In this document: one piece after another, positions 2,619 through 31,828 of the stretch
Layout: the number at the start of each line of letters is the position of its first letter
Numbering within the stretch: position 1 is the stretch's first letter
DNA from: Comamonadaceae bacterium ALPHA2B
GTDB taxonomy: Bacteria; Pseudomonadota; Gammaproteobacteria; Burkholderiales; Burkholderiaceae_C
NCBI GenBank assembly: GCA_005503065.1
Contig: SCOE01000027.1
Location: forward strand, 1 to 64,000
Length of the DNA: 64,000 nt
Direction: 5' to 3'
Notes under the pieces: model-generated
What the model was told of the DNA's origin: nothing
Databases searched by the model: none
What the model saw: the letters and a program-made list of their open reading frames with translations, nothing else
Position numbers and translations under genes: made by a program

Positions 2619-2636
2619 GCCAACCTCGGAGCAACC

Positions 2637-4256: not shown

Positions 4257-4321
4257 GACACCATCCGCTACGAAGGGGAGCTCCTTTGCGAGATCCCCGC
4301 CTCACCTCCAAGGAGTGAACC

Positions 4322-7865: not shown

Positions 7866-8809
7866 CGGGCGCCGCGATGAAGCCAACGCTCAAGCCCACG
7901 CTCGTGACCGGCGCGGCCGGCCTGGTCGGGCAAGCGGTGGCGCGCAAGCTCCACGCGCTCGGCCGTCCGGTGATCGCCATGGATCGGGCTGCGCAGCAGT
8001 TGAGCGATGGCTTGGCGGTGCAGGCATGCGACCTCGGCGACGTCCATCGCCTGCATGCACTGGCCCAGGAGGGGATCGACGGCGTTGTCCACTGCGGCGC
8101 TTACTCCGGACCCATGGTCGCGCGCGACAGCCCCCACTCGATGGTCCAGGTGAACATCGTCGGAACCGCGAACATGCTCGAACTTGCACGGGTCCACGGC
8201 GCGCGACGTTTTGTCTACTGCTCGTCCACGAGTGCGTATGGCGTGACGCCCGACAGCGACGACTTGCCGGAGGACACGCTACTGAGACCCGGGAGTTTGT
8301 ACGGTGCCAGCAAAGTGGCCTCCGAGTACCTCGTGAGGGCGTATGCGCAACAGTATGGACTGTCGGGCGTGAACATCCGGCTCTCGTGGGTCTACGGACC
8401 GCGTCGCACCACCGACTGCGTCATTCGAACGATGATCGAGGACGCGCAGGCGCGGCGGCCGACCCGGATGACATTCGGCTTCGATTTTCCGAGGCAGTTC
8501 ATTCACGTGGACGACGCCGTCGCGGGCCTGATCCTCGCGCTGGACACCGAGGCGCCGCGGCAGCATGCGTACAACGTCACGGGCGGCTCGCGACTGACGC
8601 TCGGCGAAGTTGCGGCGCTCGTGCGCACCGCTCATCCCGGCGCGGACATCGAACTCCAAACGGGCGACGACCCGGTCGACGAACGGCAGGCTCGGTTCAG
8701 CATCGAGGCGGCGCGCCAAGACCTGGGTTATTCCCCCAAGGTGGGATTGCAAGAAGGCATCGCAAGTTACTCGGCATGGCTCTCGGACCCGCAAGGCCAG
8801 CGACCATGA
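7862..8809 (+). CDS. NAD(P)-dependent epimerase/dehydratase family protein (extended SDR)
   Basis: A 315-residue extended short-chain dehydrogenase. The N-terminal Rossmann motif is TGAAGLVG, the catalytic pair is in YGASK, with SSTSAYG supplying the Ser, and FIHVDDAV is typical of the sugar epimerase and uronate dehydrogenase branch. ATG at 7862 overlaps the ATPase stop. The substrate cannot be read from sequence; in this operon it may oxidise or epimerise a hydroxy acid or sugar-like part released from the imported compound. Confidence 0.8.
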   Translation: MTGAAMKPTLKPTLVTGAAGLVGQAVARKLHALGRPVIAMDRAAQQLSDGLAVQACDLGDVHRLHALAQEGIDGVVHCGAYSGPMVARDSPHSMVQVNIVGTANMLELARVHGARRFVYCSSTSAYGVTPDSDDLPEDTLLRPGSLYGASKVASEYLVRAYAQQYGLSGVNIRLSWVYGPRRTTDCVIRTMIEDAQARRPTRMTFGFDFPRQFIHVDDAVAGLILALDTEAPRQHAYNVTGGSRLTLGEVAALVRTAHPGADIELQTGDDPVDERQARFSIEAARQDLGYSPKVGLQEGIASYSAWLSDPQGQRP

Positions 8810-9318
8810 AGCGCATCGTGCCCGTCGACTTGGACGCCGAGCAATTCGCGCCGTACGGCGTCGTGCACACGTCTCCTGAGGGCTCCAGTCGCAGCTACTT
8901 CGATGCCGCGCTCACGGCGGCACGGCCAAACGCGTGGCCCTCGTTCTCTCTGGTGCGAAATGTGCCTATAGCCGGCGCCGAGCTGACGGTGACCGCGTTA
9001 GAGTGTCATGCGCATTCCTCGCAAACTTTCGTTCCGATGGTGACCTCGCGCTGGCTCGTCGTCGTCGCCCCCGACGATCGTGGACGCCCTGATGGCGACC
9101 GAATCCAGGCGTTCATTGCCACGCAGCACCAGGCGATCACCTACGCGGCGGGCACCTGGCACTTGGGGCTGCATGTGCTCGACCACGCCGCCACCCATGC
9201 GATCTTCATGTGGCGCGACGGCACGCAAGGCGACGAGACCTTCTGCGACATCGTGCCCGTCGTGCTCACCATTCCCGACATCCCCGCACTGCCCCACTAT
9301 GACCCATCTCGCGCGTGA
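8806..9318 (+). CDS. ureidoglycolate lyase family protein (AllA-like)
   Basis: A 170-residue protein of the ureidoglycolate lyase/hydrolase family, a cupin-like fold that in known members releases urea from ureidoglycolate to give glyoxylate. The family hallmarks are visible: FAPYGVV near the N-terminus, ECHAHSSQTFVPM (metal or active-site His cluster) and the region YAAGTWHLGLHVL. The start ATG overlaps the previous stop by four bases. It would act late in allantoin-type catabolism, but no allantoicase gene is nearby, so its substrate here may be another ureido acid. Confidence 0.8.
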   Translation: MKRIVPVDLDAEQFAPYGVVHTSPEGSSRSYFDAALTAARPNAWPSFSLVRNVPIAGAELTVTALECHAHSSQTFVPMVTSRWLVVVAPDDRGRPDGDRIQAFIATQHQAITYAAGTWHLGLHVLDHAATHAIFMWRDGTQGDETFCDIVPVVLTIPDIPALPHYDPSRA

Positions 9319-10213
9319 CTTCGTCGGCTACGGCCGCAATCCCCCGAACCCCCGATGGCCGGGACACGCCAGGCTGGCCCTGAACTTCGTCCTCAACTAC
9401 GAAGAGGGCTCCGAGCCATCGTTGCAGGACGGCGAAGCCGCAACCGAGACATGGTTTACCGAAGCCAGCGGTCTGAGCAGTGGTGTCGAGGGCCGAGATC
9501 TTGCGGCCGAGGGCCTCTTCGAATACGGCAGTCGCGTCGGATTCTGGCGGATCCTGCGCCTGCTGCAGGAGCGCCAGATGCCGGCAACGATCTATGGCTG
9601 CGCTCTGGCGCTGGAGCGCAACCCCGAGGCTTGCGACGCCATCCGAGAGTCGGGATTCGACGTGTGCTCTCACGGATGGCGCTGGATCAAGCACTACCTT
9701 TTGTCTGAGGTCGAGGAGCGCGAGCACATCCGTCGTGCTGTCGCCTCGATCGAGCGCACCGTCGGCGAACGGCCGCAAGGCTGGTATTGCCGGTATTCGC
9801 CGAGCGTGAACACGCGACGTCTGCTCAAGGAGGAAGGCGGCTTTCTCTACGACTCTGATTATTACGGCGACGAACTGCCCTTCTGGCAAGTCGTGCAGGG
9901 CTCTCCGCATCTGGTGATCCCCTATTCGCTCACGAACAACGATGGCCAGTTCGCTGCCGGCGTGAGCACCGGCGACCAGTGGTTCAGCTTCCTGCGCGAT
10001 GCATTCGACATTCTCTATCGGGAAGGCAAGACGCAGCCGAAGATGATGTCAGTCGGCCTGCACATGCGCCTAGTCGGGCATCCTGCGCGAGCAGCGGCCT
10101 TTGAGCGCTTTCTCGACCACGTGTCGCAGTTTCCGGATGTCTGGATCACTCGACGCATCGATATCGCCAAACATTGGCACCAGTTTCACCCCTACCATCC
10201 AGACTCCAAGTGA
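9299..10213 (+). CDS. polysaccharide-deacetylase-fold hydrolase, PuuE allantoinase-like
   Basis: A 304-residue member of the carbohydrate esterase 4/NodB fold group that includes PuuE, the metal-independent allantoinase of Pseudomonas. The N-terminal stretch FVGYGRNPPNPRWPGHARLA and the motifs LNFVLNYEEGSE, GFDVCSHGWRW and GWYCRYSPS are characteristic of the PuuE branch rather than of chitin deacetylases. ATG at 9299 overlaps the end of the AllA-like gene by 20 bases. No signal peptide is present, so it is cytoplasmic, in keeping with a ureide substrate. With the amidohydrolase at 1152 the operon would have two unrelated ring-opening enzymes. Confidence 0.82.
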   Translation: MTHLARDFVGYGRNPPNPRWPGHARLALNFVLNYEEGSEPSLQDGEAATETWFTEASGLSSGVEGRDLAAEGLFEYGSRVGFWRILRLLQERQMPATIYGCALALERNPEACDAIRESGFDVCSHGWRWIKHYLLSEVEEREHIRRAVASIERTVGERPQGWYCRYSPSVNTRRLLKEEGGFLYDSDYYGDELPFWQVVQGSPHLVIPYSLTNNDGQFAAGVSTGDQWFSFLRDAFDILYREGKTQPKMMSVGLHMRLVGHPARAAAFERFLDHVSQFPDVWITRRIDIAKHWHQFHPYHPDSK

Positions 10214-10971
10214 ACAAGACCTTTGACCTCTCCGGCCGGAGCGCCGTCATCACAGGCGGCAGCCGCGGCATTGGTGCGGCCATCGCCGAGCTCTTCGCGG
10301 CGCACGGCGCGAGGGTGGCGATCTGCCACCTCGGCGATGAGCGAGGTGCCGTCGCGCTGCAAGAGCGGCTGACCGAACGCGGCCATGTCCTGCATGCCAC
10401 CGAATGCGACGTATCCGATCCTCTGGCCGTCGAACGAATGAGCGGCTGGACGCAAGCGGTGATCGGCGACGTCGACATCGTGGTCAACTCCGCAGGCGTG
10501 GGCGGCGGCGATCGCCCGTTCGAGCAGACGAGCGACGCTGACTGGGATCGCATCGTCGGCATCAATCTGCGCGGCACGATGCAGGTCACGCGCGCGTACT
10601 TCGCAGGCATGATGGCGCGTCGCTACGGACGCGTGATCAACATCGCCTCGCAGCTGGCCTACAAGGGCGCGCCAGGCCTCGCGCACTACTGCGCTGCCAA
10701 GGCGGGCGTCGTGGGCTTCACGAGAGCGCTGGCTTACGAAGGTGCGCCCGTCGGCGTGATGGTCAACGCCATTGCACCCGGTCCGGTGGATACCGAGCTT
10801 CTGCGCAACCACAGCCCGCAATGGCTGGAGATGAAAAAGGGCCAGTTGCCGATCGGTCGATTCGGATTGGCCGATGAGATTGCGCCCACCGCCCTGCTTC
10901 TCGCCTCCGCGGCGGGCGCCTTCTACGCGGGACAGACCCTTTCGCCGAACGGCGGCGACGTGATGCTGTAA
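10210..10971 (+). CDS. short-chain dehydrogenase/reductase (classical SDR)
   Basis: A 253-residue classical SDR with cofactor motif TGGSRGIG, NSAG, and the catalytic Tyr-Lys in YCAAKAG. The GTG at 10210 forms a GTGA overlap with the preceding stop and is preferred over an upstream TTG. It resembles FabG-like oxidoreductases; the substrate is unknown. It is the last gene of the ureide operon. Confidence 0.85.
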   Translation: MNKTFDLSGRSAVITGGSRGIGAAIAELFAAHGARVAICHLGDERGAVALQERLTERGHVLHATECDVSDPLAVERMSGWTQAVIGDVDIVVNSAGVGGGDRPFEQTSDADWDRIVGINLRGTMQVTRAYFAGMMARRYGRVINIASQLAYKGAPGLAHYCAAKAGVVGFTRALAYEGAPVGVMVNAIAPGPVDTELLRNHSPQWLEMKKGQLPIGRFGLADEIAPTALLLASAAGAFYAGQTLSPNGGDVML

Positions 10972-12114: not shown

Positions 12115-12921
12115 GGTTCTGTCGCGATAAGGCCCGGCTGGTAACCTGTATTCGGTTAACGACCGGACGAAGACATGATCAAGGCTCTGCGCAAGGTGAT
12201 CGAGCGAATGCATTACCCGCTGGAGGTGATGCTCACGTGTGTTCGCTGGTACGCGGCCTATCCGCTGAGCCTGCGGCACATTGAGGAGATGATGGCCGAG
12301 CGCGGCGTTGTCGTTGATCACGCCACCGTGCACCGCTGGGCAATCAAGATCTTGCCGGTGCTGGCGGCCGCGTTCCGTCGGCGCAAACGCCCCATTGGCA
12401 AGAGCTGGCGAATGGATGAGACCTACATCAGGGTCGCTGGGCAGTGGAAGTATCTGTACCGGGCCGTCGATCGCGACGGCGATACGATCGACTTTCTGCT
12501 TCGCGCCAAGAGAGACCACGCAGCTGCCCGAAGATTTCTCGAACAGTCCATCGGCTTGCACGGTGTGCCCGAGAAGATCACCATCGACAAGAGCGGCGCC
12601 AACAGGGCGGCCATCTTGAGCATCAATTCCGACTCCGGCGCGGACATCGAACTGCGCCAGAGAAAATACCTCAATAACGTCGTCGAGCAGGACCACCGGG
12701 CGATCAAGCGCATCGTGCGACCGATGCTTGGATTCAAATCCTTTCGCTGCGCACGGATCCTGCTCGCCGGAATTGAACTCATGCACATGATCAAGAAGGG
12801 CCAGCTCGATCTCCCTCAAGGCCAAGTCTCGCCCGCAGCATCGAAGTTCTACTCGCTGGCCTTTTGAATACGGACGGCGCCCCAGCGTCACTGAACTCCT
12901 CGTCGTTACTGCGACAGAACC
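12115..12921 (+). mobile_element. complete IS6-family insertion sequence, 807 bp
   Basis: The terminal inverted repeats begin with GGTTCTGTCGC at 12115-12125 and its exact complement GCGACAGAACC at 12911-12921; similarity extends a few bases further inward. The length and one transposase are as expected for IS6/IS26-like elements. The eight bases outside the ends differ (gaatggac on the left, tcgggcgg on the right), so there is no target duplication. Both flanking genes are truncated at the exact borders (IS110 transposase, hutG), which is the usual sign of adjacent deletion or cointegrate activity of this family. Confidence 0.9.
12175..12867 (+). CDS. IS6-family DDE transposase
   Basis: A 230-residue transposase. 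The DDE triad is readable: MDETYIRVAGQWKYLYRAVD supplies the first Asp, ITIDKSGANRAAI the second, and YLNNVVEQDHRAIKR the Glu. The N-terminal half has the helix-turn-helix region SLRHIEEMMAERGVVVDHATV typical of the family. The frame is intact and the element has both ends, so it is probably active. Confidence 0.93.
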   Translation: MIKALRKVIERMHYPLEVMLTCVRWYAAYPLSLRHIEEMMAERGVVVDHATVHRWAIKILPVLAAAFRRRKRPIGKSWRMDETYIRVAGQWKYLYRAVDRDGDTIDFLLRAKRDHAAARRFLEQSIGLHGVPEKITIDKSGANRAAILSINSDSGADIELRQRKYLNNVVEQDHRAIKRIVRPMLGFKSFRCARILLAGIELMHMIKKGQLDLPQGQVSPAASKFYSLAF

Positions 12922-13169
12922 TCGGGCGGGCGGTTCAGGTCGATAACGTAGCGCGAGTGCGTGGCCGCCAGCACCGAGGCGCCCATGTCCTCGGCGAAGT
13001 CGTAGAGACATTCGAGGTGCCAGTCGGTGTCGGGCACGCGGCGCGCCTCATCGGTGAAGCGCGCGGCCAGCGCCGGCGGCACATGGGTGCCGACGTGCGG
13101 CATCGAGATCAGCAGTGGGCGCGTGCCTTGGCGGAAGCGGAAGGCAGGCTCGGTTGAGGTGAAGCTCAT
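12906..13169 (-). pseudogene. hutG: N-formylglutamate deformylase, truncated by IS6 (hutG')
   Basis: The first 82 codons match HutG: LLISMPHVGTHVPPALAARF, then DTDWHLECLYDFA and a truncated YVIDLNRPPE, where the normal enzyme continues for about 180 residues. The last few codons and the stop come from the IS6 end. The start ATG overlaps the hutF stop. HutG would convert N-formylglutamate to glutamate and formate, so this copy of the last step of the HutF route is lost. Confidence 0.88.
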
Positions 13170-14587
13170 GTCGGGGATTCCTGAAGCAGCTGGCGGCGCG
13201 CGGTAACGAAGCCGGCCTGCGCCGCATCATGGTCGGGATGGCGCGCCGCCGCCACGCGGGCGCGGCCGTTGACAAACACATCGTGCACGGCGCTGGTGCG
13301 ATGGCTGGCGAACACGTGGCCGGCTAGCTGCTGCGGCGCCGCCAGGCCGGCCAGCGCCGGGTGCGCGGCATCGAGCACGACGAAGTCGGCCTGCTGGCCC
13401 GGCGCCAGGCCGGCGATGTGGCGCCCCGCGGCCTGCGCGCCGCCGCGAACGGCGGCCAGCGTCATCGCGGTGGCGACCTCGGGCTGCTGCGCGTCGGCCG
13501 CCACGTTGCGCCGGCGCGTGGCCAGGCGCTGGCTGTATTCGAGCAGCATCAGCTCCTCGGCCGCGTTGACGCAGGCATGGCTGTCGGAGCCCACGCCCCA
13601 GGCGCCGCCATCCGCGGTCCAGCGGGGCAGGGCGAAGATGCCGTCGCCCAGGTTCGCCTCGGTGGTCGGGCACAGGCCAGCCACGGCGCCGCTGGCGGCC
13701 GCGCGGCGGTACTCGCCGGCGTCCATGTGGGTGGCGTGCACCAAGCACCAGCGCGCATCGACCGGCGCGTGGTCCAGCAGCCAGGCGACGGGGCGCTGGC
13801 CGCTCCAGGCGAGGCAGTCCTCCACCTCCTGCACCTGTTCGGCGATGTGGATGTGCACCGGTGCGGTGGAGTCGATGGCATCCAGCCCGGCCAACAGCTC
13901 GCGCAGCGCCTCGGGCGGCACTGCGCGCAGCGAATGGGGCGCCACGCCCAAACGCACCGCTGGGCCGCCTGCGGGGGCGTGTGCACCCTGCGCCTCGCAC
14001 AGCGGCTTCAGCCGTTCAAGCAGCCGCAGCATCGATTCCGTGCTGCGGATGAAGCGCCGCTGCCCCTCGCCCGGCGGCTTCGCGCCGAAGCCGCTGGTCT
14101 GGTACAGCACCGGCAGCAGCGTCAACCCGATGCCGGCGCGCTGCGCGGCGCGCATTACGGCCAGGGCCAGTTCGGCGTCGTCGGCGTAGGGGCGGCCATC
14201 GGCGTCGTGATGCACGTAGTGGAACTCGCACACCGCTGTGAAGCCGGCCTCCAGCATCTCGACGTACAGGCCGAAGGCGATGGCCTCCAGCTGCCCCGGC
14301 GTGAGCTTCAGCGCGAAGCGGTACATCAGGCTGCGCCAACTCCAGAAGCTGTCCTCGCCGCTGCCGCGGAACTCGGTCAGCCCGCCGATGCCGCGCTGGA
14401 AGGCGTGCGAGTGCAAGTTGGGCATGCCGGGGACCAGCGGGCCGGCCGCCGCGGGCACGCCGGCAGGCCGCGCGGCGCCGGGCCATACCTGCAACAGCGC
14501 ACCGCGCTCGTCCCAGGCCAGCAGCACGTCGCGCGCCCAGCCGGTGGGGAGCAACGCATCGGCGGCAAAGAGGATCTTTTCCGTCAT
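13166..14587 (-). CDS. hutF: formimidoylglutamate deiminase
   Basis: Amidohydrolase of 473 residues that converts N-formimino-L-glutamate to N-formyl-L-glutamate plus ammonia. The metal ligands are visible in [12 protein letters not shown] (His59, His61), [14 protein letters not shown] and [17 protein letters not shown] at 14587 overlaps the hutI stop by four bases; a frame that continues further upstream is a shadow of hutI. Its presence shows that the cell uses the five-step histidine route, which needs HutG next, but hutG is broken here. Confidence 0.92.
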
Positions 14588-15828: not shown

Positions 15829-16422
15829 TCAGGCCTTGGCCGGGTGCCAGGCGGCAGCGAGCAGCACCGCGTCGGCCTCGCTGCTTTGCAGCGGCCATGC
15901 GCGGTCCGCGCCCGCCCACCACAGGCCCTGCTGCGCGGCCAGCGCCTCGTCACCCGCCTGCCAGCGGCCGCGCAGCGCCAGCAGCAGGCCGTGGGGCGCG
16001 GCGGGCAGCTCGGTGTCCGCACACAGCACATGCAGCTCGGCGCGCACGCGGCCGCGCCGGCTCATCACGTTGAAATCGGTCGATGGTCCGCCAAGCAGCG
16101 TGCAGTCGATGGGCACGTCGCCGCTGAAGGCGAAGGGCTGCAGCGGCACATCGAGCCGGCGGGCGATGCCCGGCCCCTGCAACTGCACGCCGTCGCCTTC
16201 CAGCAGCGTGATGAGGCGGTCCACGCCCGCGAACACCGAGAACGGCCCGCTGGATACGATGGAGGCGATGGAGACGCGCCAGTCGAAGGCCTCGAAGCCG
16301 GCGCCCACGGGCCAGCACGCGACCTCGCACGTGCTGCCGCCGCCGTTCTTCCACGGCGCGGCCGGCAGCTGCGCGACATCAAAGCGCTGCAGCATGGATG
16401 CGGCGAGCGCGCCGGCCATCAT
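15829..16422 (-). CDS. hutD: HutD family protein
   Basis: A 197-residue protein of the HutD/Ves family, a bicupin fold found in hut operons and thought to limit the intracellular urocanate or formiminoglutamate level. Typical features are [16 protein letters not shown] near the N-terminus, [23 protein letters not shown] and [10 protein letters not shown]. The ATG at 16422 overlaps the hutU stop. Confidence 0.9.
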
Positions 16423-18116
16423 TTCACCATCGGCAGCTTGAGGCCGAACTTCTTCGCCTTCTCGATGGCGAGTTCGTAGCCGGCGTCGGCGTGGCGCATC
16501 ACGCCCGAGCCGCAGTCGTTGACCAGCACGCGGGCTAGGCGCTTCTCGGCGGCCTCGGTGCCGTCGCACACGATGACCATGCCCGAATGCTGCGAATAGC
16601 CCATGCCCACGCCGCCGCCGTGGTGCAGGCTGACCCAGGTGGCGCCGCCGGCCACGTTCAGCATGGCGTTGAGCAGCGGCCAGTCGCTCACGGCGTCGGT
16701 GCCGTCCTTCATGCTTTCGGTCTCGCGGTTCGGGCTGGCCACCGAGCCGGTGTCCAGGTGGTCGCGGCCGATCACGATCGGGCCCTTGAGTTCGCCGCTC
16801 TTCACCATCTCGTTGAAGGCCAGGCCGGCAATGTGGCGCTCGCCCAGGCCCAGCCAGCAGATGCGTGCAGGCAGTCCCTGGAAGGCGATGCGCTCGCGCG
16901 CCATGTCCAGCCAGCGGTGCGTATGCTTGTTGTCGGGGAACAGTTCCTTGATCTTGGCGTCGGTCTTGTAGATGTCCTCCGGGTCGCCCGAGAGCGCCAC
17001 CCAGCGGAACGGACCTTTGCCCTCGCAGAACAGCGGGCGGATGTAGGCGGGCACGAAGCCGGGGAAATCGAAGGCGTTCTTCACGCCTTCGTCGAAGGCG
17101 ACCTGGCGGATGTTGTTGCCGTAGTCCACCGTCGGGATGCCCATAGCCTGGAAGTCCAGCATGGCCTGCACGTGCACCGCGCAACCCTGGGCCGCGGCCT
17201 TCGTCAGTTCGGCATGCCGGGCCGGGTCGGCGGCAGCGGCGCGCCACTGCGCCACGGTCCAGCCCACGGGCAGGTAGCCGTTGATCAGGTCATGGGCGGA
17301 GGTCTGATCGGTCACGATGTCGGGCCGAGGGCCGCCGGCCTTCGCGCGCCGGACCAGCTCGGGCAGCACCTCGGCGGCATTGCCCAGCAGCGCGATGGAG
17401 ACGGCCTCGCCCTTGCCGGTGTGGTGCGCGATCAGCGCCAGCGCGTCGTCGATGTCCCTGGCCTGCTTGTCCACGTAGCGGGTGCGCAGGCGGAAGTCGA
17501 TGCTGGACTGCTGGCATTCGATGTTCAGCGAGCAGGCGCCCGCCAGCGTGGCGGCCAGGGGCTGCGCGCCGCCCATGCCGCCCAGGCCGGCCGTCAGGAT
17601 CCACTTGCCGGTCAGGTCGTTGCCGTAATGCTGGCGGCCGGCCTCGACGAACGTCTCGAAGGTGCCCTGCACGATGCCCTGGCTGCCGATGTAAATCCAG
17701 CTACCGGCGGTCATCTGGCCGTACATGAACAGGCCCTTGCGGTCCAGCTCGTTGAAGTGCTCCCAGTGGCCCCACTTGGGCACCAGGTTGGAGTTGGCGA
17801 TCAGCACGCGCGGGGCGTCGGCATGGGTCTTGAACACGCCGACGGGTTTGCCCGACTGCACCAGCAGCGTCTCGTCCTCTTCCAGGTCCTTGAGCGAGGC
17901 CAGGATTTGGTCGAAGCATGCCCAGTCGCGGGCGGCGCGGCCGATGCCGCCGTAGACCACCAGCGCCTGCGGGTTCTCGGCGACGTCGGGGTCCAGGTTG
18001 TTATGGATCATGCGGAAGGGCGCTTCCGTGAGCCAGCTCTTGCAGCTCAGTTCGCTGCCGCGCGGCGCGCGGATCACGCGGGTGGGATCGAAGCGGGGAT
18101 CGGTCAGGGTGGTCAT
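16419..18116 (-). CDS. hutU: urocanate hydratase
   Basis: A 565-residue urocanase that hydrates urocanate to imidazolonepropionate with tightly bound NAD+. Family motifs: [27 protein letters not shown], the conserved cysteine near CWLGLGERH, and [18 protein letters not shown]. It has full length. It is the first hut gene of the run; hutH and hutC are not in the window. A gap of 78 bases separates it from the fusion gene upstream on the same strand. Confidence 0.96.
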
Positions 18117-18194: not shown

Positions 18195-19214
18195 TCAAGT
18201 CCGTTCATGCCCGACACCGCTGTTTGCAAATTCCTCGAGTTGATCGAGATGGTCATTTCCCCAGAAGAGCTTGCCGTCGCAGAAGAAGCTTGGAGCACCG
18301 AATACGCCTCGCTCTTGCGCTTCCAGGGTGTTTGACTCAACTGTCTGCTTGAAGGCTGGAGCTTCAGCGGACGCACGCACCTTATGAGGATCCAGCCCCA
18401 CGGATGCGCCGAGCGACGCGAGTTCGTCTAGGTCGCTGATGTCCTTGGATTCGCTCCAGTAGGCGCGCATCACCGCGATGACGAAGGGCTCGGCTTTGCC
18501 TTGCTCGTCGGCATAAGCGGTCGCGCGCAAAGCACGAGAAGGCCGCAGCGGAAAATCCGGGTGGTAGCGGAACGCGATCCCGAGCCGCCCGGCGGCATCC
18601 AGCATGTCTGTCTTGAACCAGCGCACGAATGCGGCATTCGCATCGAGTGGTCGACGTCCGTCGATCCGCTCGATGAGCCGCGCCAGGTGCATCGGTCTCC
18701 AGACCAGCCTGCGTCCAAGCCGTCGGGCGATGGCGCCGATCCTCAGCGCAGCGAAGTAGCACCAAGGACTGTGGTAGTCGAAGAGGAACTCGATCGGCGT
18801 CCCGCCTGACGCCTCGGGCGCCGTGGGCGCCGAAAGCGTTCTGCCGCTCAGAAAACGCTTCAGATTGACGACCGCTCTTTCGTGCGTACCGCGCATGAGT
18901 TCGCGCCCATCCTGCGTCGCGCTCACGGCGAACCGCAGAAGCCGTCCATCCTGCCCTTCGAGCCGGGCGACGGCGGCGACCTCCCGGCCTGGAACGGCGG
19001 GTGCGAGATGGCGCACGTCGATGCGCGTGCCCACGGTCGCTTCATCGTCTTCGTATAGATCCCTCACGGCACGATGGCTGGCCTCTTCCAGCAATCCCAC
19101 AAGATAGGGGGACGAGACCACCACCACCCCCGTGTTGCCGATCGCTGCGGCCGTCGCGTCTTCGCCAGGCAAGACGGAGAAGACGCCTGTGCGCCCAATC
19201 AACGCCGCTCTCAT
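18195..19214 (-). CDS. fusion of a FlK-like thioesterase and a DsbA/HCCA-isomerase domain
   Basis: A 339-residue protein with two domains not normally joined. Residues 1-122 match fluoroacetyl-CoA-specific thioesterase-like hotdog proteins: VVVVSSPYLVGLLEEASH places Ser34/Ser35 and Glu43, and TRIDVRHLAPAVPG places His69, where FlK has its Thr, Glu and His. After a linker (about 123-139) residues 140-330 form a thioredoxin-like domain of the 2-hydroxychromene-2-carboxylate isomerase group: FLFDYHSPWCYFAALR with S-P-W-C rather than CxxC, and the cis-Pro segment GVFGAPSFFCDGKLFWGND. ATG overlaps the stop of the acyl-CoA ligase, so ligase and thioesterase are coupled. No signal peptide. The substrate is unknown; a CoA ester of an aromatic or halogenated acid is possible. 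Confidence 0.82.
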   Translation of the reverse strand: MRAALIGRTGVFSVLPGEDATAAAIGNTGVVVVSSPYLVGLLEEASHRAVRDLYEDDEATVGTRIDVRHLAPAVPGREVAAVARLEGQDGRLLRFAVSATQDGRELMRGTHERAVVNLKRFLSGRTLSAPTAPEASGGTPIEFLFDYHSPWCYFAALRIGAIARRLGRRLVWRPMHLARLIERIDGRRPLDANAAFVRWFKTDMLDAAGRLGIAFRYHPDFPLRPSRALRATAYADEQGKAEPFVIAVMRAYWSESKDISDLDELASLGASVGLDPHKVRASAEAPAFKQTVESNTLEAQERGVFGAPSFFCDGKLFWGNDHLDQLEEFANSGVGHERT

Positions 19215-20839
19215 GGCAGAAGATTAAGTGTGTTGGCGGCCGCGAACGCTTGCAGATCACGCTTCTTGATCTTGCCGCTCGACGTCATTGGCCAGTGCTT
19301 GACCTCAAAGTACCGGATGGGGTGCTTGAAGGCCGCCACTTTCCCTGCAAGGAATTGCTTGAGGTCTGCGGCAGACGTGCTGCCCGTCAGGCTGACGGCT
19401 GCTGCGACGATTTCGCCGTAGTAGGCATCCGGCAGACCAAACACGGCGACCTCGGCCACGTCCGGATGCTCGCGCAGAAGGTTCTCCACTTCGACCGGAT
19501 AGATGTTCTCTCCGCCGCGGATGATCATGTCGCGCAGCCGACCACCCGCGACGACCATGCGTCCGTCGGCGCGCAGATAGCCGAGATCTCCCGTCTGCAT
19601 CCAGCCATGGGCATCGATGGTTTCCGCAGTGGCCTCGGGCTGGTGCAGATACTCGAGCATGACCATGCGCCCCCTGACTTCAATCTGGCCCATGGCGAGG
19701 GGTGCCAGAACTTCACGCGTGTCGGGGTGCGTGACCCGCACTTCCATGCCATCGAGCGGCAGACCGCTCGTCTCCCAGCGCAAGGGGCTGTCGGGCCTGT
19801 CCAGTGCAATCAAAGTGCTGGCTTCGGTCTGGCCGTAGACCTGGACCAGTCCGGGCACGGGGAACTCGGCCGCGCACCTGGCGAGCACCGCTGGATCGCA
19901 GTCCGAGCCGCCGCAGGTGCCTGCCCGCAGCGAACTCAGGTCGTACGACTGCCGGGCGGGATGCTGAAGCATGCTCAGGTAGGAGGTAGGAACCCCCGTG
20001 AGCAAGGTGCAGCGCTCGCTTTCGACGATACGGAACATGTGTTCGGCATCAAAGGCCGGCACGCCGACATAGGTGGCGCCCGTGGCGAGACAACCCATCA
20101 GGTTCATGATGCATCCGGCGCAATGGAACAGCGGGATGATGGATGTCCAGCGATCCAGATGGGTGATTTCCAACCGCGCGGCAGTGGCTGCAGCGTTTGC
20201 CATCATGCCTTCGAATGAAAGGGCGGCACCCTTGGGCTGGCCAGTGGTCCCGGACGTATACTGGACGCTGCCAACCGCCCGCGCGCCCACCTCGGTCGCA
20301 GAGAATTCCTCGGACGCCTGGGCCAGGAGCGACTCATAGCGCAGGACACCGTGGACGTCGACCGGATCGAAGCAGATCACGTGCTGCAGGCAGGGCGCCT
20401 CATGCCGCTGGCTCTGGACCATTTGGAGATACTCGCTGGACCGGAACCGCTGCGAAAGAAGGATGGCCTTCGCCCGGCTGTGGTTGAGCACATGCCGCAG
20501 GTCGTTCTCGCGGAAGTGGGTGTTGATCGGCACCAGGACAGCGCCGAGCCCGGCCAGGGCTGTCTGCGTCACAGCCCATTCGAGCCGGTTCTCGGCCCAC
20601 AGCCCCACCGTATCGCCTTCGCCAATGCCCAACTGGCGCAAGGCGTTGGCCAGCCGCCGCGCTTGGCCAAGCCATTCGCTGAAGGAGAGGCGGACGTCGG
20701 AAAGCGGAAAGACGATGCCATCCTGATCGGGCCATTGCTCTGCGCAGGCTTGCAGTGCCGTGTACGAGTTGGCGGAATCGGTGCGGATATCGTTCGGCGC
20801 GGCGCGCGGTGCCGCCGCCTGCAGGTGGGCAGTTCTCAT
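19211..20839 (-). CDS. AMP-dependent acyl-CoA ligase
   Basis: A 542-residue member of the ANL adenylation family that would activate a carboxylic acid to its CoA thioester with ATP. Core motifs: YTSGTTGQPKG (about residues 194-204), YGQTEAS, the hinge region TGDLGYLRADG, RLRDMIIRGGENIYPVEVE and the C-terminal catalytic lysine in SSGKIKKRDL. The ATG at 20839 is chosen because GGAAG stands just before it; ATG at 20851 is the alternative. It lies between an ABC importer and the thioesterase-isomerase fusion, implying that it acts on the imported compound. Confidence 0.88.
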   Translation of the reverse strand: MRTAHLQAAAPRAAPNDIRTDSANSYTALQACAEQWPDQDGIVFPLSDVRLSFSEWLGQARRLANALRQLGIGEGDTVGLWAENRLEWAVTQTALAGLGAVLVPINTHFRENDLRHVLNHSRAKAILLSQRFRSSEYLQMVQSQRHEAPCLQHVICFDPVDVHGVLRYESLLAQASEEFSATEVGARAVGSVQYTSGTTGQPKGAALSFEGMMANAAATAARLEITHLDRWTSIIPLFHCAGCIMNLMGCLATGATYVGVPAFDAEHMFRIVESERCTLLTGVPTSYLSMLQHPARQSYDLSSLRAGTCGGSDCDPAVLARCAAEFPVPGLVQVYGQTEASTLIALDRPDSPLRWETSGLPLDGMEVRVTHPDTREVLAPLAMGQIEVRGRMVMLEYLHQPEATAETIDAHGWMQTGDLGYLRADGRMVVAGGRLRDMIIRGGENIYPVEVENLLREHPDVAEVAVFGLPDAYYGEIVAAAVSLTGSTSAADLKQFLAGKVAAFKHPIRYFEVKHWPMTSSGKIKKRDLQAFAAANTLNLLP

Positions 20840-20910
20840 GCTTGCTTCCATTGGGTTATGACCGCGCGAAGGCGGCATGGGCCGCGGCCGCAGCCGCGAA
20901 GGGCATCTGT

Positions 20911-21708
20911 CTATGCCGCGGAGGAGACCTGGATGTCCAGATCGCTCCAGATCCTGTCGAAGTGATCGTTGAACTGCCCGGAGCGGCGCAGGGCGATGGG
21001 ATCGTCCTCGTGGGTTCCGAGATCGATCTCGTAGACAGACTTGACGGTGCTGGGCCGGTGCGAAAGGACCAGAACCCTGTCCGCCATGGCAATGGCTTCG
21101 CCAATGTCGTGCGTCACCAGAATGGCGGACTTTCGGCGGTCGCGAATGATGCGCTTCACATCGCCTTGCAGGATCAGCCTCGTCTGGAAGTCCAGGGCGG
21201 AGAACGGCTCGTCCAGGAGTATGGCCTTGGGGTCGAGCGCCAGTGTCCTCATGAACGCCACGCGCTGGCGCATGCCCCCAGACAGCGCATTCGGCTTGGC
21301 GGATTCGAAGCCTGCCAGTCCATAGCTCTTGATGAGGCTTGCAGCCAGTTCTCTTGCAACGGCCGGCTCCGTGCCCTTCACTTCAAGGCCCAGCGTGACG
21401 TTTTCGAGAACGGTGCGCCAGGGGAGGAGCATGTCTTTCTGCAGCATGTATCCGACATGGCCCTTGGCACCATCGACCACCTCGCCATCGACGTACACGG
21501 CCCCCGACGTCGGTTCGAGAAGCCCCGCGATGATGTTGAAGAGCGTGGACTTTCCGCATCCGGAGGGACCGACGATCGCCAGGATCTCTCCTTCGCGCAG
21601 TTCGAAGCTGACGCGCTGGAAGACGACGACCTCGCGTTCGGTCCCAGTGTTGAACGACTTGGAGACGTTCCTGGCCTCGAGCGCAACGGCGTTTGACTTG
21701 TTTACCAT
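20911..21708 (-). CDS. ABC transporter ATP-binding protein (SsuB/TauB-like)
   Basis: A 265-residue ATPase of the nitrate/sulfonate/taurine importer group. Walker A GPSGCGKST (47-55), Q-loop MLQKD, signature LSGGMRQRV (142-150), Walker B ILLDEP (163-168) and switch His in VTHD. It overlaps the permease gene by seven bases. Organic anions, aromatic acids and pyrimidine precursors are known cargoes of the wider group; this one is not determined. Confidence 0.88.
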   Translation of the reverse strand: MVNKSNAVALEARNVSKSFNTGTEREVVVFQRVSFELREGEILAIVGPSGCGKSTLFNIIAGLLEPTSGAVYVDGEVVDGAKGHVGYMLQKDMLLPWRTVLENVTLGLEVKGTEPAVARELAASLIKSYGLAGFESAKPNALSGGMRQRVAFMRTLALDPKAILLDEPFSALDFQTRLILQGDVKRIIRDRRKSAILVTHDIGEAIAMADRVLVLSHRPSTVKSVYEIDLGTHEDDPIALRRSGQFNDHFDRIWSDLDIQVSSAA

Positions 21709-22511
21709 TTGAACCTCGCTTCGACCTTGAGCAGCAGGAAGTCCAGGATCAGCGCCAGGACCATTAGGCAGAAGATGCCGACGAACACTGCATTGATGTC
21801 ATAGAGCGCGCCGGCGTTGTAGATGAAGTAGCCGAGGCCCTTTTTGGCGGAGATGTACTCCCCGACGACTGCGCCGATCATGGCAAAGCCGATGTTCAGC
21901 CGCATGGTCGCCAGGATCCACGGCGTGGAGCCCGGGACAATGACCTTTCGCCAGATGGTTAGCGGCCGCGCACCCAGAGACCGCATCAGCTTCACGAGGT
22001 CCGGATCGACCTCCTGCGTTCCCTGGTACACCGAGATGAGCGCCACGATGAACGTGAGGCTTGCTGCGATGGCCACCTTGGCGCCGATGTCGACACCGAA
22101 CCACACGATGACCAGCGGCGCGAGCGCGATCTTCGGCACGCCATTGATGGCCACGATGATGGGGCGCAGGATGCGCGCGACCGTCTCCGAGAGCCAAAGC
22201 GCGAGGCCGACTCCGCTGCCCAGCGTCGTACCGATGATGAAGCCCGTCACGGCCTCGAATGCGGTGGCGCCCACATGGCTGAAGAGTTCTCCGTCGCGTG
22301 CGAGCGCAATGGCTTTCGAGAGGATCTCCGAGGGTTGGCCATAGAGATACTTGGGCGCGACGCCTGTCCTGACCAGGACTTCCCAAAGAATGAGAATGCC
22401 GAAGACGAGGAGGGTCTGGTACAGGGTGATGCGCATGCCATCACGTTTGCGCACAGGACTTGCCTGAGCGTGCGTGCCTAAGGTGGCGACGGGAGATGCG
22501 GTGCCGGCCAT
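21702..22511 (-). CDS. ABC transporter permease (SsuC/TauC-like)
   Basis: A 269-residue membrane protein with about six helices. The EAA loop of BPD-type permeases is seen in VKLMRSLGARPLTIWRKVIVPGSTP, and the family pattern NGVPKIALAPLVIVWFG is typical of the taurine/nitrate permeases. Four bases separate it from the binding protein gene and it overlaps the ATPase gene. Confidence 0.88.
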   Translation of the reverse strand: MAGTASPVATLGTHAQASPVRKRDGMRITLYQTLLVFGILILWEVLVRTGVAPKYLYGQPSEILSKAIALARDGELFSHVGATAFEAVTGFIIGTTLGSGVGLALWLSETVARILRPIIVAINGVPKIALAPLVIVWFGVDIGAKVAIAASLTFIVALISVYQGTQEVDPDLVKLMRSLGARPLTIWRKVIVPGSTPWILATMRLNIGFAMIGAVVGEYISAKKGLGYFIYNAGALYDINAVFVGIFCLMVLALILDFLLLKVEARFKW

Positions 22512-22515
22512 GTGC

Positions 22516-23553
22516 TCAACCTCGAATGCCGAAGGCCTCGGTGGCCTTCTGCGCGAAGCTGTTGTTCACCATTTCTTCGAACGGAAGCTGGCGGCGGATG
22601 GTTCCCGCGAGCAGGTCGTGCTCCATGCTGGCGTCCCATTCCGCCTTGGTGACGATCGGGTTGAGCGGCACGAAGCCCTGCGTTGCGAGCAACCGCGCAC
22701 AACCGGCGTCGACCACCTGGGGATCCAGGTTGGAAAACTCGGCCTTCATGGCGCTCACGTAGGCTGCGGTGTTTTCGCGCGTGAGTTTCATGGCCGCTGC
22801 GATGGCGTTGCAAAAGCGCTGGATCACTTCCGGATGGGATGTGATGTAGTCGTTCTTGACCATGACCGAGGTCAGCAGCATCGGACCGAGTTGCTCGGCG
22901 AAGCCGTACACAATCTGCAGACCCTGCTGAACCGCGATGCTTGCGTCCCATTCGAAAACGACTCCCACATCGGCTCTCTTGTCGCGAACGGCTCCGATGA
23001 TGGAGCCGGGCGGGCCTTCGAGAAACTCCACGCCTGCGGCCTTGGGGTCGAAGCCCGCGAACTTCTTCATCGCGAAAGTCGGCGATGTGACGGTATTGGA
23101 CGGGTAGCGCAGGCTGGCAACTTTCTTGCCTTTGAAGTCGGCGAGCGAAGTGAACGCTGTTCCCGGGCGGGCAACGGCCCACATGCCAAGGGTGCCGCAC
23201 ATTTTTGCGACGACCTTCATGTTTCCCCCCTCGACGGTGGAATTCACTGCCATGCCGGTGCCGGTCGCGGCGAATTGCGCCCGTCCGGACAGGGCGATCG
23301 AGACGGGCTCGACGACGGTTCCTCCAACGTTGATGGTGACGCTCAGCCCCTGCTTCTCAAAGAGGCCGCTGCGCGCGGCGACGTAGATGGGGCCATAGTT
23401 GGCCAGCTTCAGTCCGGTCGTCAGTGCGATCGGGATGGCCGCTTGACCGAAGGCATCGCGGACGGTTAGAGATACTAGCGTCGAAGACGCGCCAAGGACG
23501 CCGAGCGCCTTGATCGCGTTGCGCCGCCCCTTGCTGTCAACTGGGTGCTTCAT
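22516..23553 (-). CDS. ABC transporter substrate-binding protein (NMT1/THI5-like)
   Basis: A 345-residue periplasmic protein of the NMT1/SsuA group. The N-terminus has twin arginines (KGRRNAIKALG) before a hydrophobic stretch and a FGQA cleavage region, so Tat export is possible. The start of the mature domain, LKLANYGPIYVAARSGLFEK, is characteristic, and GVVFEWDASIAV lies in the ligand-binding half. ATG at 23553 has AGGA six bases upstream. It is the promoter-proximal gene of the operon controlled by the TetR-side promoter. Confidence 0.88.
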   Translation of the reverse strand: MKHPVDSKGRRNAIKALGVLGASSTLVSLTVRDAFGQAAIPIALTTGLKLANYGPIYVAARSGLFEKQGLSVTINVGGTVVEPVSIALSGRAQFAATGTGMAVNSTVEGGNMKVVAKMCGTLGMWAVARPGTAFTSLADFKGKKVASLRYPSNTVTSPTFAMKKFAGFDPKAAGVEFLEGPPGSIIGAVRDKRADVGVVFEWDASIAVQQGLQIVYGFAEQLGPMLLTSVMVKNDYITSHPEVIQRFCNAIAAAMKLTRENTAAYVSAMKAEFSNLDPQVVDAGCARLLATQGFVPLNPIVTKAEWDASMEHDLLAGTIRRQLPFEEMVNNSFAQKATEAFGIRG

Positions 23554-23792: not shown

Positions 23793-24410
23793 ATGACCAC
23801 AGTACTTACCCCTACGCTCGGCACCGAGCCTGCACGCGGGCGACCACGCAACCAGCAGACCCACGGTGCGATCCTTGACGCGGCGCGCGACCTACTTCGT
23901 CAGGAAGGGGAGTCCCGCTTTTCCTTCGAACAGGTAGCGAGCGCCGCAGGCGTGTCCAAGGCTTCCATTTACCGCCGCTGGCCCACCAAGGGGGCACTGC
24001 TCATGGAGCTCTACATGGAAGGCTTTTCCGATGTCGTTCGCAAAGACGCGCAGTCCTTCCGCAGCGAGATCAAGCGCTACCTGCTGTCCACCGTCGAGCG
24101 GCTGAAGGATCCGCTGTGGAGAAGCATCCTGTGCTCGCTCATGGTCGAGGGGCAGCACGATCCAGTCACCGCAGAGTTGCTGCACTCCAAGGTGGTGGGG
24201 CCCAGGCGTGCAGCGGGTCTGGCGCTTCTCGCGCATGCCGCGAACAAGCGGCAAATTCCGGCAGGCCTCGATCACGAACTCGTCTTGGATCTTCTGTTCG
24301 GACCATTGTGGTATCGCGTGCTCTTCGGACATGCGCCGATCAACAACGACTTCGTTGAGCGCCTGCTCAAACAAGTAGAACCGGTGTTGTTCGCACACGA
24401 AAGCAGTTAG
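23793..24410 (+). CDS. TetR-family transcriptional regulator
   Basis: A 205-residue regulator. The N-terminal HTH reads ILDAARDLLRQEG, FEQVASAAGVSKASIYRRWPTKGALLMEL, the classical TetR pattern. The C-terminal ligand domain resembles the TetR_C_11-like group with LDLLFGPLWYRVLFGH. It is divergent from the importer-ligase operon; the overlapping palindromes between them are its likely binding sites. The natural inducer may be the imported acid or its CoA ester. Confidence 0.88.
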   Translation: MTTVLTPTLGTEPARGRPRNQQTHGAILDAARDLLRQEGESRFSFEQVASAAGVSKASIYRRWPTKGALLMELYMEGFSDVVRKDAQSFRSEIKRYLLSTVERLKDPLWRSILCSLMVEGQHDPVTAELLHSKVVGPRRAAGLALLAHAANKRQIPAGLDHELVLDLLFGPLWYRVLFGHAPINNDFVERLLKQVEPVLFAHESS

Positions 24411-29118: not shown

Positions 29119-31731
29119 TCACTTTGCGCTGTCCCGATATGCGAGCAACCTCAAAGCATTGAACACCACCAACAAGGTAGACCCCTCATGCACTGCGACG
29201 GCCGGTCCGATGCCGAGGCCCAGAATCGTTGCCGGAACCAGAAATGCCACCACGCCAAGGCTTACAAAGACGTTCTGGCGGATGACGCCACGCGTATGGC
29301 GGCTCAAGCCTACGGCAAAAGGCAGATTGGCGAGGTCGTCGGCCATCAGGGCAACATCGGCCGTCTCCAAGGCGACGTCGGACCCGGCCGCGCCCATGGC
29401 AATACCGACCGTCGCGCTGGCCATCGCCGGCGCATCGTTGACGCCGTCTCCCACCATGGCAACTTTGTCTTCGCCAGCAAGCTTCTTGATCGACGCGACC
29501 TTGTCCTCGGGCATCAGGTCGCCCCACGCCTCGTCCAAGCCAACATCCTGCGCGATGGCATCCGCGACCTTCTGATGATCCCCGGAGATCATGATCATCC
29601 GGCTGATGCCGAGCGCATGGAGCTTGCGCAAAGCCTCCTTCGCCGCAGCGCGGGGCGTATCCATCAAGCCGATTGCGCCGAGATCCCTTTCACCCTGGCG
29701 CACCACCATGGTCGTACGACCGCCCTCCCGCAACTTGGCGATGGCTTCCAGTACACCAGATCCCAACGCCGGAATGCCGTCCTTGCCGAACATCTCCGCC
29801 TTGCCGATCCATACCGGCTCGTCGCCGACCCGTGCTTCCACGCCTTTGCCTGTCAGGCTCTTCAAATCCCCCGCACTCGGCAACTGCCGGTCGCCCAGTC
29901 GCTCGCGGCCGTCCTTCACGATCGCCTGCGCCAAGGGGTGGTCACTCATTGATTCGACTGCGACTGCGACGGCCAACAAGTCTTCTTCTGCCACACCCTG
30001 TGCCGGCACCACGTCCGTGATTCGAGGACGCCCCTCCGTGAGCGTGCCCGTCTTGTCAAACGCAATTGCTTTCAGCGAGCCGAGGTTCTCCAAAGGCGCT
30101 CCACCCTTGACGAGCACGCCACTGCGCGCTGCGCGCGCCACGCCCGAGAGCACGGCGCTCGGGGTCGCGATGGCCAGGGCACAGGGACTTGCTGCGACCA
30201 GAACCGCCATCGCTCGGTAGAAGCTATCGCGGAAAGGCTCGTCGACAACCACCCACGCAAACAACAGGATGAAGGCCAGCAAGAGGACGACCGGGACGAA
30301 CACGCGCTCAAACTTGTCGGTGAATCGTTGCGTCGGCGACTTCTGCGTCTCCGCCTCGCTCACCATCTTGACCACCTTTGCAAGGGCCGTTTCATTGGAG
30401 CGCCGAGTCACTTCTATCTCGATTGCCCCAGCGCCGTTGATTGTTCCCGCAAACACCCGACTCGACGCTTCCACTGCATCCGGGCGGCTCCGTGCAGCGG
30501 CGACATCCGTCACGGGCAACTTGTCCACCGGAATGCTCTCGCCCGTTACCGGAGCTTGATTGATGGAACTGTTTCCCTTGACCACGAATCCGTCTGCGGG
30601 GAGTCGCTCGTTAGGACGCACAATCGCGACATCTCCCAACTCAAGCTCTTCGACAGGTATCTCCACCATCTGACCTTCGCGGCGAACCGTTGCGGATTCC
30701 GGGGCCAGTTTGGCCAATGCCTCGATCGCTCGCTTGGCTCGGCCCATCGCATAGTGTTCCAGCGCGTGGCCCAAGCTGAACAGAAAGAGCAGCAGCGCGC
30801 CCTCGGCAAACTCTCCAAGCGCCGCCGCGCCCGCAGCGGCAACGAGCATCAGCGTATCGATCTCAAACTTGCGCAGCTTGAGGTTGTCGATGGCCTCACG
30901 AAGCGTGAAGAAGCCCCCGAACACATAGGCAATGACATAGCAGACGGTCGGGACCCATGTCGGCACCCCCGGCAATAGCTTTTCAACGGCAAACCCCGCG
31001 ACAAGCACTGCGCCGCAGGACAACGCAAAGATCAGCTCGGTGTTCGGCCCCAGAAATTCTGCGTGGCCATGGTCATGGCCGTCACCAGGACCATGCGCTG
31101 CCGAACTGTTCTGATCCGCACCCGATCCGTGACTGTGTTCATGCCCGTCACGCCGATCCTGCGTGTCGGACCGGTGGTCGTGCGAGTGGTCCCCATGGTC
31201 GTGTCGTCCTTGCTCACCTCCCATGTGTTGGTGATTTGAACGGCCCGCACTCGGTGAGTTCGTCGCGAGGACCCCCGTCGAAGTCCCAACGCGCTGCACC
31301 TTCAGTATCGCGAGCTGCGCAAGTATGTCCCGTTCAGTGATCCGCTCACGGTCGTACTCCACGCGAATCGATCCCGTTGCGCTCGCATCAGCCTCGAGGA
31401 CGCCGTCCATCGCGCCGATCGTCTCGCCGACTGTTCGGGCGCGCCGCTCGTGTGTGATCCCTTGAACTTGCCAATAGACGTGACCAAACTGCCCGGTAAT
31501 CTGCGCGCCGGCTGCACGCACCATCTCTCTAACGCGCTCTAGTGTCAATGCAACCGGGTCGAAGTGAATGCAAAGCTTCGCTGCGCCGCTCTGCGTCGCA
31601 GGCAACACGTGGACCTTGTCCACTCCGGACTTTGCCCCCAACGTTCGAAGCAGCCGCTGGACGCATGCGTCTGCCACGTCTGGAACCTCGGGAAGGACGA
31701 GTGGCAAATCGAGCTCGAGTTTGTTGCTCAT
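29119..31731 (-). CDS. czcP: P1B-4-type heavy-metal-exporting ATPase, CzcP-like
   Basis: An 870-residue cation exporter of the inner membrane. It has two HMA-like folds without CxxC (about 1-75 and 85-145), a His-rich cytoplasmic loop with 14 His (about 167-223), then the ATPase core: TGES (396-399), SPC in the membrane (515-517), DKTGT (phosphorylated Asp559), GDGVNDAP and a C-terminal HEGST (about 848-852). SPC plus HEGS/T marks subgroup P1B-4, which exports Zn, Cd or Co in Cupriavidus CzcP. GGAG lies eight bases before the ATG at 31731; longer forms upstream lack coding character. The ZIP gene lies 97 bases upstream on the same strand. Confidence 0.88.
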   Translation of the reverse strand: MSNKLELDLPLVLPEVPDVADACVQRLLRTLGAKSGVDKVHVLPATQSGAAKLCIHFDPVALTLERVREMVRAAGAQITGQFGHVYWQVQGITHERRARTVGETIGAMDGVLEADASATGSIRVEYDRERITERDILAQLAILKVQRVGTSTGVLATNSPSAGRSNHQHMGGEQGRHDHGDHSHDHRSDTQDRRDGHEHSHGSGADQNSSAAHGPGDGHDHGHAEFLGPNTELIFALSCGAVLVAGFAVEKLLPGVPTWVPTVCYVIAYVFGGFFTLREAIDNLKLRKFEIDTLMLVAAAGAAALGEFAEGALLLFLFSLGHALEHYAMGRAKRAIEALAKLAPESATVRREGQMVEIPVEELELGDVAIVRPNERLPADGFVVKGNSSINQAPVTGESIPVDKLPVTDVAAARSRPDAVEASSRVFAGTINGAGAIEIEVTRRSNETALAKVVKMVSEAETQKSPTQRFTDKFERVFVPVVLLLAFILLFAWVVVDEPFRDSFYRAMAVLVAASPCALAIATPSAVLSGVARAARSGVLVKGGAPLENLGSLKAIAFDKTGTLTEGRPRITDVVPAQGVAEEDLLAVAVAVESMSDHPLAQAIVKDGRERLGDRQLPSAGDLKSLTGKGVEARVGDEPVWIGKAEMFGKDGIPALGSGVLEAIAKLREGGRTTMVVRQGERDLGAIGLMDTPRAAAKEALRKLHALGISRMIMISGDHQKVADAIAQDVGLDEAWGDLMPEDKVASIKKLAGEDKVAMVGDGVNDAPAMASATVGIAMGAAGSDVALETADVALMADDLANLPFAVGLSRHTRGVIRQNVFVSLGVVAFLVPATILGLGIGPAVAVHEGSTLLVVFNALRLLAYRDSAK

Positions 31732-31828
31732 ACATGTTTCTCCGTTCAATCCAGTTTTGGGGCTCGATGTGGACGCCCGCACATGCCGAGTTCGCTCCGC
31801 CGACGTGGTTCGATCGTTTGGCACGACC

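Follow-up and report, generated by a model that had tools for sequence, protein, structure and literature searches.

The urocanate hydratase HutU uses trans-urocanate as its substrate. The UV photoisomer of this compound, cis-urocanate, is an immunosuppressive photoproduct of skin urocanate, and we know of no other natural precursor that would need isomerisation alone. Urocanase-positive skin bacteria reportedly metabolise cis-urocanic acid (Patra 2025). Glutathione-dependent isomerisation of an alkene is performed by HCCA isomerase, the known member of its family for this reaction. Furthermore, routes in which an acid is activated to its CoA ester, modified and hydrolysed again are established for 4-chlorobenzoate (ligase, dehalogenase, thioesterase) and for the chiral inversion of ibuprofen. 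In the thioesterase FlK, the lid residue Phe36 gives the selectivity for the fluoroacetyl group. Passages of two articles cite Hug 1999 for bacteria that turn cis- into trans-urocanate, by a cis-urocanic acid isomerase activity of the skin bacterium Micrococcus luteus (PMC5988872, PMC8145394). For the hut locus of Pseudomonas fluorescens, the urocanate transporter HutTu is mentioned in passages of two further articles (PMC8871633, PMC7319117). Neither a gene for a cis-urocanate isomerase nor urocanoyl-CoA (urocanyl-CoA) esters were found in the open-licence literature searched.

Here, the window is the whole stretch of 64,000 nucleotides that was analysed. It harbors on the minus strand an operon in the order substrate-binding protein, permease, ATPase, acyl-CoA ligase, fusion protein, hutU, hutD, hutI, hutF and a hutG remnant. 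The features are the following:

23793..24410, plus strand: divergent TetR-family regulator, with a 75% identical relative in the corresponding position of the Acidovorax locus
22516..23550, minus strand: NMT1/SsuA-type substrate-binding protein, by sequence comparison
21702..22511, minus strand: ABC transporter permease (SsuC/TauC-like), by sequence comparison
20911..21708, minus strand: ABC transporter ATPase (SsuB/TauB-like), by sequence comparison
19211..20878, minus strand: AMP-forming acyl-CoA ligase overlapping the start of the fusion by ATGA, by Pfam and relatives of 57–79% identity
18195..19214, minus strand: fusion of an FlK-type hotdog thioesterase (aa 19–117) with a DSBA/HCCA-isomerase (kappa-GST-like) domain (aa 141–328), by Pfam, solved-structure matches and alignment
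16419..18116, minus strand: hutU, urocanate hydratase, the second hutU of the genome (TIGR01228, 941 bits, cut-off 375)
15829..16416, minus strand: hutD-like gene, its product sharing 51% identity with the HutD-like counterpart in the hut operon of contig 11
14584..15810, minus strand: hutI, imidazolonepropionase (476 bits, cut-off 298)
13166..14587, minus strand: hutF, formimidoylglutamate deiminase (TIGR02022, 580 bits, cut-off 413)
12912..13160, minus strand: hutG remnant, the first 83 residues, truncated at an insertion sequence
12115..12921, plus strand: IS6-like element (family named by eye), transposase at 12175–12867, inverted ends at 12115–12130 and 12906–12921

Elsewhere in the window, a dihydropyrimidinase/ABC transporter/epimerase/PuuE-like/SDR operon is located on the plus strand (1152–10971). 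Counterparts of eight of its nine queried proteins, with 45–74% identity, lie in an operon beside the fusion on the K. michiganensis plasmid NZ_CP114157.1 (L051), so that this operon is a second neighbour shared by fusions. On the minus strand (29119–32572), frames resembling a heavy-metal P-type ATPase and a ZIP-like transporter were recognised by eye, and insertion sequences are present in the window.

The fusion is encoded by a single uninterrupted open frame of 339 aa (window positions 18195–19214, minus strand). Residues 19–117 match the FlK family PF22636 (E 4e-24, 85.1 bits against a cut-off of 27) and residues 141–328 the DSBA family PF01323 (E 5.3e-37, 127.9 bits against 25.6). Both domains are far above the Pfam cut-offs, in agreement with a preliminary description of this DNA, which had proposed one intact frame joining them. 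A sequence search of solved structures matched FlK (3kuv) to residues 32–123 and HCCA isomerase to residues 139–333 (3fz5) and 141–328 (2imd), and a profile built from eight aligned fusions additionally matched kappa GSTs. The catalytic residues S35, E43 and H69, already named in that description, indeed align with FlK chain positions 42, 50 and 76. Across the eight aligned fusions, which count the window's own and in which the Klebsiella and Pantoea rows are nearly identical (97%), position 35 is S or T and both E43 and H69 are invariant.

Likewise invariant are G62, S149-P-W-C152, P308, N320 and D321. Here, S149, P308, N320 and D321 align with Ser11, Pro169, Asn181 and Asp182 of 2imd. As in HCCA isomerases and kappa GSTs, a serine, S149, replaces the first Cys of the CxxC motif (SPWC, 8/8), at the position of the glutathione-activating Ser of HCCA isomerase. 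The residues of the cis-Pro loop and the GND motif, P308, N320 and D321, are kept throughout, and their equivalents in these enzymes contact glutathione. A DsbA dithiol oxidoreductase was ruled out, since the CxxC motif is absent and SPWC is found in all eight aligned fusions. Cys152, retained in all eight as well, may have a role beyond the mechanism proposed below. Both domains exceed the Pfam cut-offs in six of six relatives scanned. In each of 14 comparisons (seven relatives, two domains), the proportion of differing sites is lower for nonsynonymous than for synonymous positions (pN 0.17–0.47, pS 0.59–0.92, with the synonymous sites largely saturated).

Close relatives occur in an Acidovorax MAG (68% identity), in Neopusillimonas maritima (55%) and in a gammaproteobacterial MAG (44%), three of 28 candidate stretches being confirmed in a genome-contig scan with short peptides that reaches close relatives only. 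Among sampled whole genomes, the fusion was present in 1 of 399 of the family, 1 of 399 of the order, 2 of 369 of the class and 1 of 249 of the phylum, where the samples overlap and the window's genome is counted in each of the four. The second fusion of the class sample, G898, displays 49% identity. At E 1e-40 or 1e-50 this sampling returned the window itself and G898 only, and at E 1e-30 five further genomes matched, chiefly through the isomerase domain. Two of these five loci were read (L011, L012), and both were discarded as stand-alone isomerases of about 200 aa. Plasmids gave 197 matching records. In 57 of these the match covers 80% or more of the query, namely in 44 from Klebsiella, 11 from Raoultella and one each from Paraburkholderia and Pantoea. 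On the 55 Klebsiella and Raoultella records the protein is annotated 'DsbA family protein', sometimes '2-hydroxychromene-2-carboxylate isomerase', with no tested function. No megablast match to the Klebsiella unit was found in E. coli genomes. Within the samples covered, the architecture is rare yet recurrent, on plasmids and among insertion sequences. A description of an FlK-DsbA fusion enzyme was not found in the open-licence literature searched, and the preliminary description knew of none. As judged from sequence, the fusion is a real and recurrent bifunctional protein, undescribed within the literature searched.

An ATGA overlap between ligase and fusion is present in all six ligase-linked loci checked (the window, L006, L007, L014, L017 and L018), and the ligases of the five other loci are 57–79% identical to that of the window. 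The translational coupling to an acyl-CoA ligase was rightly recognised in the preliminary description. What that description missed is the remaining context, namely hutU-hutD-hutI-hutF, the absence of a histidase, the ABC transporter and the recurrence of the architecture, for the most part on plasmids of Klebsiella and Raoultella. A concordant divergence of fusion and ligase was considered and dropped, since their identities show no significant correlation over 15 pairs (Spearman 0.28, p 0.31). The linkage of the ligase-fusion pair to hut genes is found in three gene arrangements with two transporter types (the window, Neopusillimonas, and the Klebsiella/Raoultella plasmids), and hut genes are absent from the stretch read in three of the six ligase-linked loci (L006, L014, L017).

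No histidase was found within the window, which thus lacks the canonical combination of hutH and hutU in one operon. The genome holds a single hutH match, located on contig 11 along with another hutU. Here, a complete second hut operon is present (hutC-H-U-D-I-F-G, with other genes between hutU and hutD), which carries its own ABC genes including an NMT1-family binding protein. The NMT1-type binding proteins of window and contig 11 share only 30% identity over 93 residues; the two HutU proteins are 87% identical. Since the sole hutH lies in the contig 11 operon, the hut set of the window represents a second, histidase-free urocanate route. In Neopusillimonas maritima (L007), hutI-G-F-D-U, the ligase-fusion pair, the same type of ABC transporter and hutC are found together, and a second set, hutU-D-F-G-I with an ABC transporter of the Liv type (assigned by eye from the translations), lies about 20 kb away. 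A hutH match is absent from this genome, which is of unstated completeness, despite two hutU, and the second set is likewise without hutH. The two hut sets of Neopusillimonas (L036, L007) suggest that this organism scavenges urocanate and does not use the hut route for the breakdown of histidine. In the Acidovorax locus (L006), a TetR regulator, ABC genes, the ligase and the fusion have no hut genes nearby, and a complete hut operon with NCS1 and ABC genes is located on another contig. As the histidase is bypassed in the hut-linked loci, the position of the ligase-fusion pair appears to suit a supply of HutU with urocanate better than one with histidine.

On the Klebsiella and Raoultella plasmids, an NCS1 permease, the ligase and the fusion adjoin hutG-I-NCS1-U, hutD-C and hutF. 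The NCS1 transporter of the Acidovorax hut operon, located between hutH and hutU, is 44% identical to the fusion-linked NCS1 of Klebsiella, and that of the plasmid hut cluster is 51% identical. Among 56 enterobacterial plasmid records close to the Klebsiella fusion, 39 occur within the best 60 of the 275 plasmid records matching hutU. In 36 of these 39, hutU starts less than 20 kb from the fusion, in two it lies at 47.6 kb, and in one both genes are near opposite ends of the record. Six of the 17 fusion records outside these best 60 were read. One bears hutD-C-F and a partial hutU beside the fusion, at the record end; the other five, Pantoea included, show no hut gene in the stretch read. Three of these five have an interrupted or shortened ligase, which makes three of four if only the Klebsiella and Raoultella loci are counted. 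The Pantoea plasmid carries NCS1, ligase and fusion between IS elements, and the Paraburkholderia plasmid has LysR, NCS1, the ligase and the fusion in the vicinity of a Tn3 transposase; hutU was found on neither plasmid, the plasmid alone being covered in both cases. On the hut-bearing plasmid L026, hutU is broken.

On two K. pneumoniae plasmids (L047, L048), the annotation splits the ligase preceding the fusion into two CDS, and the 41 kb covered there showed no hut gene, which looks like decay of the ligase-fusion unit where hut is absent.

A different putative entry gene is present on the Klebsiella plasmid CP027603.1 (L052), the one read of the 21 fusion-less records among the best 60 of the 275 hutU matches. 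Here, a HutH-like lyase, which is intact, lies between hutD and hutU together with an ABC transporter of the betaine type, and the hut DNA around the L018 fusion is 94–97% identical to that of this plasmid. In the fusion-bearing loci L015, L018, L026 and L049, only a C-terminal remnant of the HutH-like lyase is left, as judged on the plasmid loci, and no match to the ABC binding protein of L052 was found. The Klebsiella chromosomes may supply a histidase. By gene content, a putative lyase entry and a putative fusion entry to urocanate both occur within one plasmid family. The lyase (L052:9623–11155, minus strand) shares 38% identity with HutH and does not reach the TIGR01225 cut-off. Its sequence is GGSVGYLIATAHIG at the place of GSVGASGDLAPLAH in the contig 11 HutH, so that the MIO-forming Ala-Ser-Gly is missing. 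By analogy, and with the betaine-type transporter adjoining, its substrate may be histidine betaine (hercynine), from which it may supply urocanate to the pathway; ergothionase does likewise for ergothioneine.

From the observed architecture, the residue conservation, the ligase coupling and the hut context without histidase, we infer the substrate, the use of glutathione and the order of steps as follows. The transporter would import cis-urocanate, which is supported, at the level of family likeness, by NMT1-type/ABC and NCS1 transporters that also sit in ordinary hut operons. The ligase would form cis-urocanoyl-CoA at the expense of ATP, which is converted to AMP, and this ester would accept a Michael addition far more readily than the free acid. 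Coupled to a thioesterase, the ligase would run a futile ATP cycle unless the CoA ester is altered, which leaves the isomerase domain as the step in between. Through Ser149, the HCCA-isomerase-like domain would add glutathione to the double bond, the bond would rotate in the adduct, and elimination of glutathione would yield trans-urocanoyl-CoA. The FlK-type hotdog (S/T35-E43-H69) would then hydrolyse the ester, and the trans-urocanate set free would be degraded by HutU, HutI and HutF. The combination of CoA-ester hydrolysis and thiol-dependent isomerisation on one chain, put forward in the preliminary description, is plausible chemistry.

The genomic pointer to urocanate as the target pathway is strong, as far as gene neighbourhood can indicate it. 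That ligase and fusion act as an 'activate, isomerise, hydrolyse' unit, which turns cis-urocanate into trans-urocanate for HutU, is a proposal for which we see the balance as even. The broader claim of an undescribed ATP-driven cis-to-trans route for an alkenoic acid, in which a CoA ligase and a bifunctional isomerase-thioesterase rescue cis-urocanate for Hut and which has spread between proteobacteria on plasmids and insertion-sequence islands, is held tentatively, at slightly less than even. The hut-less ligase-linked loci (three of six) and the hut-less plasmid records count against the cis-urocanate reading, and so do the many plasmid records with hutU and without the fusion (275 matching hutU against 56 with the fusion).

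These hut-less loci are also an argument for a role in detoxification or salvage, in which the fusion would be a general glutathione-dependent safety enzyme releasing CoA from esters of an unrelated acid, and the hut linkage would be incidental on catabolic islands. The ligase-fusion pair stands without hut in the stretch read at L006, L014, L017, L047, L048, L050 and L051, and the cassettes are mobile, with other catabolic operons around them. The outer relatives fit as well, since L008 and L016 adjoin 2-oxoglutarate dioxygenases (PhyH and TauD, respectively). Neither locus showed a close relative of the ligase, the acyl-CoA ligase of L008 being only 28–32% identical, and the architecture is therefore not confined to the proposed pathway; both genomes carry hutU on other contigs. 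These dioxygenase neighbours hint at a different substrate for that clade. Nevertheless, a hut linkage in three gene orders with two transporter types, true urocanases adjoining the pair, and the damaged ligase in three of the four hut-less Klebsiella/Raoultella loci read make this explanation unlikely, if one to be taken seriously.

Another imidazole acid might be converted to urocanate by the same logic via its CoA ester, for example a ring-substituted urocanate, imidazolepropionate or imidazolelactate. The hut context and the bypass of the histidase demand only that urocanate is the product. Imidazolepropionate would need a dehydrogenase and imidazolelactate a dehydratase, however, and neither was recognised beside the ligase-fusion pair in the loci read. 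For a thio-substituted precursor, the HutU of the window reaches 657 bits with the thiourocanate hydratase model (cut-off 930) and 677 bits with the S-methyl model (cut-off 880). Each of the three fusion-adjacent hutU tested scores above the urocanase cut-off but below both of these, and a route via ergothioneine and thiourocanate was rejected on this basis. We consider another precursor improbable.

The preliminary description had pointed toward fluoroacetyl-, aryl- and haloaryl-CoA. Here, the fusion would confer resistance by hydrolysis of fluoroacetyl-CoA, or dehalogenate haloacyl- or haloaryl-CoA with glutathione. The hotdog is a member of the FlK family in Pfam and has the catalytic triad, and operons of ligase, dehalogenase and thioesterase follow a known logic. 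In the loci read, neither a dehalogenase nor a halogen context was seen, the context being hut, and the Phe36 lid appears not to be conserved, its position falling on G29 in the window and on D in Acidovorax as placed by ungapped extension of the alignment only. A fluoroacetate or haloaryl substrate was set aside, and this direction is very improbable. A fusion of two ordinary genes by frameshift or misassembly, the objection raised from the start, is practically negligible, since the same architecture recurs in independently sequenced relatives and pN is lower than pS in both domains.

If the cis-urocanate reading holds true, it would represent a new biochemical logic, in which one ATP and a CoA cycle are spent on flipping a double bond, and would give a function to a protein annotated 'DsbA family protein' on 55 Klebsiella and Raoultella plasmid records. 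Fusion and ligase would provide a two-protein test system for the isomerisation of cis-urocanate.

Compared to known systems, the fusion resembles HCCA isomerase and kappa-class GSTs (2imd, 3fz5, 1r4w) in the DSBA fold domain and the counterparts of S149, P308, N320 and D321. In contrast to HCCA isomerase, it has an added hotdog, the Cys of SPWC where 2imd has Ser, and an acyl-CoA ligase instead of naphthalene genes as partner. With the fluoroacetyl-CoA thioesterase FlK (3kuv, 3kv7, 3p3f) it shares the PF22636 hotdog and the three catalytic positions, whereas the protein of the window is fused, has Gly as the Phe36 equivalent (Asp in Acidovorax, both by ungapped extension) and lies in loci where a fluoroacetate context was not seen. 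The likeness to the Hut operon lies in hutU, hutI and hutF, each above its cut-off, and in a HutD-like gene, all of which share an operon with the fusion; instead of a histidase, which was not found, ligase, fusion and transporter would form the entry step. Micrococcus luteus is not known to make glutathione, therefore its cis-urocanate enzyme is probably another one. As far as the passages citing Hug 1999 describe that activity, its net reaction is the same as the one predicted for ligase and fusion. Finally, the 4-chlorobenzoate and ibuprofen routes likewise take up and release a free acid and change it on the CoA ester, in contrast to which the isomerase and thioesterase of the fusion share one chain and the predicted change is from cis to trans.
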